Assembly (NCBI GenBank): GCA_009781315.1
Contig: WQYI01000001.1
Span: 62,001 to 126,000, forward strand
DNA length: 64,000 nucleotides
Source: Candidatus Endomicrobium embiratermitis
GTDB taxonomy: Bacteria > Elusimicrobiota > Endomicrobiia > Endomicrobiales > Endomicrobiaceae
Direction: 5' to 3'
A program made the translations under genes and the position numbers. The notes under the pieces are model-generated. The model was not told where the DNA came from. It made no database searches and saw nothing but the letters and a program-made list of their open reading frames with translations. Shown one piece after another: positions 5,581 through 63,852 of this stretch. Position 1 is the first letter of the stretch, and each line of letters opens with the position of its first letter.

Positions 5581-6453
5581 ATGAAAAAAACTAAAGGAAT
5601 TATTTTAGCGGGCGGAAAAGCGACAAGGCTTTATCCCATAACTAAAGGGGTAAGCAAACAACTGCTGCCTGTTTATAATAAGCCGATGATTTATTATCCG
5701 CTTTCCGTTCTTATGCTTGCGGGTATAAAAGACATCCTTATGATATCTAACGGCGATACTCTGCCGTCATTGAAAAAATTGTTCGAAGACGGCAAGAAAC
5801 TCGGGCTGAATATCGAATACGCCTTGCAGGAAAAACCAAACGGTCTTGCCGAGGCTTTTATAATCGGCGAAAAATTTATAGGAGGCGATAACGCGGCATT
5901 GATACTCGGCGACAATATTTTTTACGGCCACGGCTTGTCAAAATTTCTTCAAAATGCGGTTTCAAGGCAGGAAGGAGCGACTATTTTCGGCTATTACGTA
6001 AAAGATCCAAAACGCTACGGAATAGTAGAAGTCGATAAAAACGGAAAACCGGTTTCCATTGAGGAAAAACCTTCAAACCCAAAATCCAACTGGGCTGTAA
6101 CGGGGCTTTATTTTTACGATAACGAAGTCGTAAAAATAGCAAAGAACGTGAAACCGTCAAAACGCAACGAGCTTGAAATTACCGATGTCAACGACGTTTA
6201 CCTTAAACAGGGAAAACTAAACCTTGAGCTTTTAGGCAGAGGTTACAGCTGGCTTGACGCAGGCACGTACGAATCTTTACTTGATTCTTCAACGTTTATA
6301 AAAACGATAGAGGAAAGACAGGGAATTATGATATCGTCTCCTGAGGAAATAGCCTATAAAAAAGGCTATATAACCAAAGAGCAGCTTCTTGACCTTATCA
6401 AAGATTTGCCCGAAGAATACGCGGGATATTTAAAGACAATTACGAATGATTAA
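5581..6453 (+). CDS. rmlA: Glucose-1-phosphate thymidylyltransferase
   Basis: The 290-aa protein makes dTDP-glucose, the first step toward dTDP-rhamnose. It has the nucleotidyltransferase motif [16 protein letters not shown] with [21 protein letters not shown] (residues 5-40), [12 protein letters not shown] near 113, [21 protein letters not shown]-type residues near 160 and [12 protein letters not shown] near 225. The start at 5581 is chosen because GGAGG lies just before it and it matches family length; an upstream ATG at 5503 overlaps the previous gene and adds 26 unrelated residues. No rmlB, rmlC or rmlD is nearby. The stop codon lies inside a heptamer repeat. Confidence 0.95.
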
Positions 6454-6545
6454 TTACGAATTACGAATCAAAGACAAAGCAAAAAGTATTGTTGTTCTGT
6501 CGTTCGTAGTTGATGCGTAATTCGTAATTTGAAATTCGTAATTGA
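6437..6545. repeat. Heptamer-repeat palindrome
   Basis: Left units (CAATTAC, GAATGAT, TAATTAC, GAATTAC, GAATCAA) include the rmlA stop codon. Right units at 6504-6545 (TCGTAGT, TGATGCG, TAATTCG, TAATTTG, AAATTCG, TAATTGA) are largely complementary. The loop holds AAAGAC and ends TCTGTCGTT. Confidence 0.8.
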
Positions 6546-61623: not shown

Positions 61624-61890
61624 ATGGCATTGACTGAAGCTCAGTTAGCTGAAGCAGTATCGGCGTCAAAAATAGGTAAATACAATTTAGTAAAACTTGC
61701 TTTGGATTGGATAGAAGTAAAAAAGTACGACGAAGATTACAGGAAATTAACACAGTCCGAACTTATAAAAAAATCTTTGGACGACGTTATAGAAGGCGAG
61801 GCTACTCCGGCGAAAATAGAAGAGCTGCGTAAAAAAAATAAAGCCAGAGAAAATAAACCGGCGGCGGAAGAAGTAAAACCTAAAAAATGA
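61624..61890 (+). CDS. rpoZ: Probable RNA polymerase omega subunit
   Basis: The 88-aa protein starts at the ATG at 61624 after CAGGAG. KIGKYNLVKLALDWIE then SELIKKSLDDVIEG resembles the omega core (N-K-F-x-LV-x-A, then A-L-x-E-x-x-x-G-x-I), but several usual residues are missing. The call relies on position between gmk and coaC, where rpoZ usually sits. The end is Lys/Pro-rich. A divergent omega is the best explanation; an unrelated small protein cannot be excluded. Confidence 0.65.
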   Translation: MALTEAQLAEAVSASKIGKYNLVKLALDWIEVKKYDEDYRKLTQSELIKKSLDDVIEGEATPAKIEELRKKNKARENKPAAEEVKPKK

Positions 61891-62432
61891 ATTTAAAAGA
61901 AAAAAATATCATTCTGGGCGTTTGCGGCGCTATTGCCGCGTATAAAGTCTGCGACATAATAAGAGCGCTGGTAAAGCTTGGCGCAAACGTCGAATGCATA
62001 CTTACAAAAAACGGAGCGAAGTTTATAACCGCGCTTACTTTGCAGACTTTATCCAAAAATAAAGTGTGGCAGGAAATGTTTGACGAGCCTGAAAAGTGGG
62101 AAATAAGCCATATATCTATTGCAAAAAAGGCGGATATTATAGCGGTTGTTCCCGCAACGGCGGACGTAATTTCAAGGCTTGCCTGCGGCAGAGCCGACGA
62201 TTTGCTTGTTTCTTCAATACTTGCCTCAAAAGCGAAAATAATGATTTGTCCGTCAATGAACGGCAATATGCTAAACCATAAAGCCGTTCAAAATAATATG
62301 AATATCTTAAAAAGTTACGGATACAAATTCGTAAACCCGGAAAGCGGCGAACTTGCCTGCGGCGACATCGGCGACGGCAGGCTTGCGAACGTTGAAACGA
62401 TTGTTTCCGAAATAGTAAAGGAATTGTCCTGA
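61887..62432 (+). CDS. coaC: Phosphopantothenoylcysteine decarboxylase
   Basis: The 181-aa flavoprotein is the decarboxylase half of coenzyme A synthesis, here separate from CoaB. GVCGAIAAYKVCDIIRAL is the FMN site, SHISIAKKADIIAVVPATAD near residue 72 has the catalytic His, and SGELACGDIGDGRL near 152 has the active-site Cys. It overlaps rpoZ by 4 bases, and coaB starts after 3 bases. Confidence 0.95.
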   Translation: MNLKEKNIILGVCGAIAAYKVCDIIRALVKLGANVECILTKNGAKFITALTLQTLSKNKVWQEMFDEPEKWEISHISIAKKADIIAVVPATADVISRLACGRADDLLVSSILASKAKIMICPSMNGNMLNHKAVQNNMNILKSYGYKFVNPESGELACGDIGDGRLANVETIVSEIVKELS

Positions 62433-62435
62433 CAT

Positions 62436-63146
62436 ATGCCTTTAACGTTTTTAATAACTTCAGGACCAACAAAAGAATATATAGACCCTGTGCGATACAT
62501 ATGTAATGATTCATCGGGCAAAATGGGTGCGGCTCTTGCCTGCCGTGCGTTGAAAAAGAATCACAAAGTCATTTTTATAACCGGCAGTTCGGAAGCATCT
62601 CTCCCTAGAGCGGCAAAGATAATAAAGGTTACAAGCGCTTTGGATATGTTTAAATCCGTTAAAGATAATTTTAAAAAAGCGGATATTATTATCGGCGCTG
62701 CCGCGGTGGCGGATTTCAGACCGGTCTTGCGCAGCAGACACAAAATAAAAAAAGGGACAAAGTCCCCTCGGTTATTAATAAAACTGCAAAAAAATCCGGA
62801 TATTATCGCCTATTGCGGAAAAAATAAAAAAAAGCAGGTTGTGGCCGGGTTTGCTCTTGAAACTCAAAATTTAATTTTAAACGCGGAAAAAAAATTAAAA
62901 AATAAAAATCTAGATTTAATAATAGCAAATAACAAACAAAGTTTAGGTTCCGATAAAACAACAGTTCATTTAATTACAGCTAATTCTGTCATTGCGAGGA
63001 AGAAAACAAAGTTTTCTGACGAAGCAATCCAGGCTTTTGCCGTTAAGTCCTTAAAACAAGCGTCAAAAAATATTATCGCGGGAAAGATTATAGATGAAAC
63101 AATCCGAATATTTGAACGTATTAAAGCTGGCAAAAAGAACTCTTGA
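62436..63146 (+). CDS. coaB: Phosphopantothenate-cysteine ligase, with an internal palindromic insert
   Basis: The 236-aa protein joins cysteine to phosphopantothenate. FLITSGPTKEYIDPVRYICNDSSGKMG is the nucleotide site, AAAVADFRPV near residue 89 and KIKKG near 105 follow, then LDLIIANN and LGSDKTTVHLI near 170-180. Residues about 184-198 (VIARKKTKFSDEAIQ) are encoded by a palindromic TGTCAT-type element at 62987-63030; the family normally has only a short turn before the last helix, here KIIDETIRIFERI. The frame stays open, so the enzyme may work. Confidence 0.9.
   Translation: MPLTFLITSGPTKEYIDPVRYICNDSSGKMGAALACRALKKNHKVIFITGSSEASLPRAAKIIKVTSALDMFKSVKDNFKKADIIIGAAAVADFRPVLRSRHKIKKGTKSPRLLIKLQKNPDIIAYCGKNKKKQVVAGFALETQNLILNAEKKLKNKNLDLIIANNKQSLGSDKTTVHLITANSVIARKKTKFSDEAIQAFAVKSLKQASKNIIAGKIIDETIRIFERIKAGKKNS
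62987..63030. repeat. Palindromic TGTCAT-type element inside coaB
   Basis: TGTCATTGC at the start and GCAATCC at the end flank an inner GAAAAC/GTTTTC hairpin. The sequence begins and ends like dispersed palindromes known from other genomes (TGTCATTGCGAG...GAAGCAATCC). It is read through in frame. Confidence 0.75.
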
Positions 63147-63852
63147 AGAATATTCAAACTGGGGTGAAGAAGAATTGCGTAAATTTCCCGTTTCCGAAAC
63201 AACAGAAAAAAATGCGAATATTGCAAAATCCGCTGATCCGTCCGCAAGGCAGGCTTTGCCCGCCGCAAAACTTTTACAGTCTTTAAGAGAAGAAGCTTCA
63301 AAATGTAAAAAATGTCCGCTGGGAACAAGCCGTTTAACATGCGTTTTCGGCGAAGGTTCGCCAAACGCCGAACTTATGTTTGTCGGCGAAGGTCCGGGAT
63401 ATGAAGAAGACCACAAAGGACTTCCTTTTATAGGCAGAGCCGGACAACTTTTGACAAAAATAATAGAAGCCATGGGGCATACAAGGGAAACGGTTTATAT
63501 TGCCAACATCGTAAAATGCCACCCTATGAAAGATCCGTCGGATCCTGAAAAACGCTCAAACGACAGGCCGCCGACTTTTGACGAAATGGAAATTTGCAGA
63601 ACATATTTGGACAGGCAGCTTGAAATTATAAAACCTAAAATAATAGTAACTTTAGGCGCGTCTTCGACAAAAGGGTTGCTGAAAACGGAAGAATCAATAA
63701 GTTTAATCAGGGGCACGTTTAAAGAATATAACGGAATTAAACTGCTGCCTACCTATCATCCCGCGGCTCTTTTGAGAAATCCGGATTTAAAAAAAGACGT
63801 ATGGGCTGACATGAAAAAGGTCATGAATTATCTGAAAACGGGCGCGGTATGA
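63094..63852 (+). CDS. udg: Uracil-DNA glycosylase, family 4 (iron-sulfur type)
   Basis: The 252-aa protein removes uracil from DNA. CKKCPLGTSR (Cys 71 and 74) begins the domain, MFVGEGPGYEEDHKGLPFIGRAGQLLT near residue 95 is the catalytic loop, KCHP and EICRTYL give the other two cluster Cys, and LPTYHPAALLRNP near 220 is the second DNA-contact motif. An N-terminal helical part of about 65 aa precedes it. It overlaps coaB by 53 bases. Confidence 0.95.
   Translation: MKQSEYLNVLKLAKRTLEEYSNWGEEELRKFPVSETTEKNANIAKSADPSARQALPAAKLLQSLREEASKCKKCPLGTSRLTCVFGEGSPNAELMFVGEGPGYEEDHKGLPFIGRAGQLLTKIIEAMGHTRETVYIANIVKCHPMKDPSDPEKRSNDRPPTFDEMEICRTYLDRQLEIIKPKIIVTLGASSTKGLLKTEESISLIRGTFKEYNGIKLLPTYHPAALLRNPDLKKDVWADMKKVMNYLKTGAV

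Follow-up and report, generated by a model that had tools for sequence, protein, structure and literature searches.

Palindromic repeats that are read as protein are of a kind already known, since intragenic REPs are recorded from several phyla. A 2013 BMC Genomics survey described the CGTC/TGTC REPs as having stems that start with AT, CCA tails, some copies in ORFs and no linked transposases; it recorded CGTC repeats in five phyla, Elusimicrobiota not among them, and equated intragenic elements of Rickettsia conorii with the Rickettsia palindromic elements RPE-4 and RPE-6, assigning them to the CGTC/TGTC REPs (PMC3733652). RPE-4, RPE-6 and RPE-7 carry the motif ATGAC (equivalent to GTCAT), and work on R. 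japonica reported that orthologues may carry RPEs of different types at one site, that these sites are solvent-exposed, and weighed an insertion hotspot against the divergence of one old insert (PMC3767692). We found no earlier report of protein-coding palindromic repeats in Endomicrobia (Elusimicrobiota) in the literature searched, and the elements described here extend them to this new phylum and to new host genes.

The locus lies in a window of 64,000 nt from the draft genome (25 contigs) of Candidatus Endomicrobium embiratermitis, which was compared with other genomes coded G001, G002 and so on. A sequence-only reading of the window had placed a palindromic repeat, read in frame inside coaB, at positions 62987–63030. 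The repeat is in frame within an ORF of 236 aa (62436–63146), and it begins where it had been placed, but it is two bases longer, ending at 63032; this 46 bp element, TGTCATTGCGAGGAAGAAAACAAAGTTTTCTGACGAAGCAATCCAG, codes for V185–Q199, in agreement with the proposed 15 or so residues. The features of the locus, in window coordinates, are as follows.

61887–62432, + strand: coaC-like flavoprotein gene, upstream neighbour of coaB (Pfam Flavoprotein, 1.4e-29)
62436–63146, + strand: coaB (phosphopantothenate-cysteine ligase), separate from coaC and host of the element (ORF; Pfam DFP, 1.6e-59; fold match to 1u7z, TMq 0.81)
62987–63032, + strand: TGTC-tagged palindromic REP element, read as V185–Q199, VIARKKTKFSDEAIQ (sequence; missing in relatives; identical copy in G032:C75)
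62991–62995, + strand: left arm of the outer stem, ATTGC (fold)
63001–63007, + strand: left arm of the inner stem, AGAAAAC (fold; stem search)
63011–63017, + strand: right arm of the inner stem, GTTTTCT (fold; inner-stem covariation in the family)
63024–63028, + strand: right arm of the outer stem, GCAAT, followed by the CCAG tail (fold)
63094–63852, + strand: uracil-DNA glycosylase superfamily gene, downstream, overlapping the end of coaB (Pfam UDG, 7.6e-37)

CoaB is in general an essential enzyme, and this coaB gene, the sole CoaB match in the genome, is presumably essential as well.

The element folds into an outer ATTGC/GCAAT stem and a perfect 7-bp inner stem, AGAAAAC-AAA-GTTTTCT. With the CGTC/TGTC REPs it shares the TGTC end (62987–62990; TGTC or CGTC in other copies), as had been noticed from the sequence, as well as the stem starting with AT, the CCA tail, the occurrence of single and paired copies, some of them inside ORFs, and, as far as the Y1 class is concerned, the lack of a linked transposase. 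Conversely, the classic CGTC/TGTC REP has a stem of 8–9 bp with a loop of 4–5 nt, whereas in the TGTCATTGCGAG subtype the stem is bulged and divided in two, and the inner hairpin is long (as much as 46 bp) and variable; the coaB element combines its 5-bp outer stem, bulges and the 7-bp inner stem. We therefore regard it as a TGTC-type relative, and not as a classic member of this class, which the TCATTCC copies fit better, by eye, than the coaB element does. The parallel with RPEs drawn in the sequence-only reading is also close, given the assignment of RPE-4 and RPE-6 to the CGTC/TGTC REPs, the GTCAT motif and the sharing of sites (PMC3733652; PMC3767692). Like RPE-4, RPE-6 and RPE-7, the elements carry the GTCAT/ATGAC motif, lie in frame in housekeeping genes, at predicted solvent-exposed places, and differ in type at one orthologous locus; the alignments of CoaB, PyrK and PdxA contain in-frame insertions in genes of known function together with insert-free homologues. 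Rickettsia inserts are longer (68–192 bp) and their host is an alphaproteobacterium; at the sequence level, the likeness noted is the shared motif. RPEs are named from Rickettsia, and the related WPEs from Wolbachia; because the host family here belongs to Endomicrobia, we consider that the element works like an RPE, yet we do not file it as one.

Pattern searches retrieved from the E. embiratermitis genome 34 CATTGCG..GCAATC elements (2 with the backward pattern as control) and 107 GTCATYCY..RGRATCC elements (0 with the backward pattern), making a dispersed family of around 140 elements with copies inside and outside genes. The strict GTCATTGCGAGG..GCAATCCA form is present in 3 copies in this genome and in 38, 44 and 12 copies in G003, G032 and G027, respectively, and was not found in any of the 42 genomes of genus g8, which are probably flagellate symbionts. 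The sequence of the coaB element recurs identically in a contig of another genus (G032:C75), outside coaB and apparently in intergenic DNA; a plasmid search with the element returned one weak partial match. For the five inner pairs of 30 elements, each 40 nt long, Watson-Crick pairing was seen in 140 of 150 cells, whereas 5000 shuffles averaged 86 such cells and never exceeded 105. This comparison ignores the relatedness of the copies, although 28 of the 30 interiors are distinct. This covariation of the inner stem among distinct interiors indicates that the hairpin has been maintained while its sequence changed, and suggests that the family would propagate as a hairpin.

These data bear on whether the segment might be an old, lineage-specific loop of CoaB that resembles a repeat by chance. 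The length of the hairpin loop does vary among homologues, and the stretch found at this site in G004 is unique to that genome, with no other copy found, for which reason we rejected it as a further repeat. A chance likeness would nevertheless have to account for exact repeat ends, for an identical copy in another genus and for the related elements of the same genome, and these copies elsewhere already contradict it, so that we give it next to no credence. The palindrome is thus not a chance one, because it belongs to a dispersed repeat family; the fold by itself would be insufficient, since with wider flanks (DNA, 61 nt) its z-score is only -1.24. We conclude, with a probability of about 0.88, that the coaB element is a copy of a dispersed, non-autonomous family of CGTC/TGTC-type REPs of Endomicrobia, inserted and tolerated in a surface hairpin of the protein; the sequence-only reading was, in essence, largely right.

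The element might instead act as RNA, its hairpin near the end of coaB tuning the stability of the mRNA or the translation of the overlapping downstream gene, which starts 62 bases past the element. As RNA, the element is more stable than most shuffled sequences, with equal stability reached in just 3 of 200 shuffles. The copy in coaB of G003, however, folds no better than shuffled sequences, most members of the host family have no insert at this site, and copies also occur midway along unrelated genes, all of which make such a role improbable.

We aligned 65 CoaB sequences, some 60 of which belong to the host family; only those of E. embiratermitis, G003, G032 and G004 have a clear insert here; nearly all the sequences from the family lack residues V185–Q199, including those of G001 and G002, from the same genus, and among the relatives examined none encoded the same residues with non-palindromic DNA. 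In coaB of G003, both the insertion codon and the element type are those of E. embiratermitis, and this agreement makes a misassembly unlikely; the interior differs in sequence and length. The insert of G032 is an inverted pair of TCATTCCGG REPs. Compared with G001, the E. embiratermitis gene has 17 additional codons, or 51 bp (the 46 bp element plus 5 bp). No exact empty site was found in a close strain, the nearest relatives being 78–79% identical in coaB DNA; the insertion is therefore deduced from diverged homologues, among which a target duplication is unreadable. The species tree places E. embiratermitis, G003 and G001 in a near-trichotomy (support 62), so that the coaB inserts of E. embiratermitis and G003 may go back to one event or to more than one, although the event in G032 is clearly separate from that in E. 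embiratermitis and G003, because it involves a different repeat type in another genus.

An AlphaFold model of CoaB (mean pLDDT 91, pTM 0.89), whose best PDB match was CoaB of Escherichia coli (1u7z), predicts that the core fold is kept despite the insert. The insert had been placed between the last strand and helix of the protein; in the model it occupies the hairpin formed by the last two strands, 174–181 and 203–210, with the last helix (211–230) following. Residues 191–200 form a bulge of lower confidence (pLDDT about 62) and, from their position in the hairpin, would be solvent-exposed. The copy would have entered coaB, probably by transposition, adding 51 bp with neither a stop codon nor a frame shift, and would have been retained because it extends a surface hairpin tolerant of changes in length. 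As a selfish REP, it would merely be tolerated in the host protein, with a near-neutral effect.

Beyond such tolerance, the extra residues could be adaptive for CoaB, providing a new contact or regulation, as might be read from the codon and element type that the inserts of E. embiratermitis and G003 have in common and from the conservation of the arms, which are identical at 29 of 31 positions vs. 78% for the remaining gene (p about 0.02, for arms picked post hoc). Against this, the two inserts differ in the sequence and length of their interiors, the insert is missing from G001 and G002, and the conservation of the arms can be put down to other copies, through exchange or re-insertion; we thus consider adaptation very improbable and favor a tolerated REP insertion.

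The proposal that the element can create protein sequence in this lineage is supported by in-frame copies in a dozen other genes of E. embiratermitis, which would likewise be translated in the cell. A long spanning ORF was found for 20 of the 135 distinct elements of this genome read in context, and we counted those genes in which Pfam matches span or flank the insert, or in which there is a single domain but the ORF runs well past the insert. Besides coaB, the host genes are pyrK, folK, prmC (two elements), pdxA, murJ, mutL, polA (two elements), a PHP-UvrD fusion, an AAA ATPase, a tRNA-U5-methyltransferase-like gene and two radical SAM enzymes, one of them HemW-like. Inserts in coaB, pyrK and pdxA are backed by aligned homologues, and those in other genes were judged by Pfam coverage and by the repeat itself. 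ORFs L331, L357 and L153, with no Pfam match, were left uncounted, as were L053 and L112, in which the pattern occurs inside the gene and looks like a chance match. Nine genes of G003 also contain in-frame elements: coaB, pdxA, an SDR enzyme, an IspE-like kinase, mnmE, trpF, a DUF362 Fe-S protein, miaA and an mfd-like gene. The elements are read as VIAR/VILK, HCE/CHS or SLR in sense and as ..RND in antisense and, since several reading frames are in use, the repeat does not appear to be built for any one of them.

At coaB, pyrK and pdxA, related species have different inserts in one and the same loop. In the alignment of PyrK, the element lies directly before the YVCGP motif in both E. embiratermitis and G002, with different interiors, G001 has an unrelated insert at the same loop, and the loop of G003 holds what looks like a remnant of the element. 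At the PdxA loop, E. embiratermitis has a TCATTCTGA repeat, G003 a CATTGCGAGG repeat and G001 AATTACG repeats, whereas G002 has no insert in that loop of the alignment; insert-free homologues exist for both proteins. The pyrK arms from E. embiratermitis and G002 are identical at 30 of 30 positions, vs. 73% for the remaining gene (p 7e-5); this p value, like that for coaB, is suggestive only, because the arms were picked after seeing the data. Such conservation hints that the inserts were renewed from other copies, by exchange or re-insertion, and did not arise by slow drift of one insert. Judging from the alignments, the loops of CoaB, PyrK and PdxA are permissive sites that appear to have been repeatedly hit or re-written across species. 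A more specific, and rather doubtful, possibility is that these sites are re-written while their outer arms stay fixed, the inner hairpin or repeat type being swapped with other genomic copies by conversion, template switching or re-insertion; if so, core enzymes would keep gaining new surface segments encoded by repeats. With their different inserts at one loop, the three genes make the question raised in Rickettsia, of a hotspot for repeated insertion versus the divergence of one old insert, testable in a second, distant lineage.

The PyrK protein of E. embiratermitis (L090:872–1741) has two more stretches that are apparently derived from repeats: PSPLAGEGGTKSRVRG, in a loop where G008 and G010 carry other inserts, and NYELRITN, which comes from AATTACGAATTACG repeats. 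Repeats of the AATTACGAATTACG type, which are also translated in PyrK/PdxA of this genus, occur in both orientations at positions 6438–6543 of the window.

RAYT/REPtron systems, whose repeats are GTAG REPs, resemble the present case in that palindromic REPs and a Y1 transposase share one genome: the window contains a Y1 (IS200/RAYT-like) transposase ORF (880–1632), the only one found in the genome. Unlike in those systems, it is flanked not by TGTC-type REPs but by perfect 20-bp inverted repeats, GTGTCAAAAACAACGTCCCC, which delimit an element at 832–1656 that is closer to the published 'TIRYT' elements than to a REP-linked RAYT. We rejected this transposase as the mobiliser of the family on account of these ends, and also because G003 gave no Y1 match despite its many elements; a search of the Y1 class yielded no transposase linked to the family. 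Elements of the form GTCATTGCGAGGA..TGACGAAGCAATC are present in 14 stretches of viral contigs (L449–L462).
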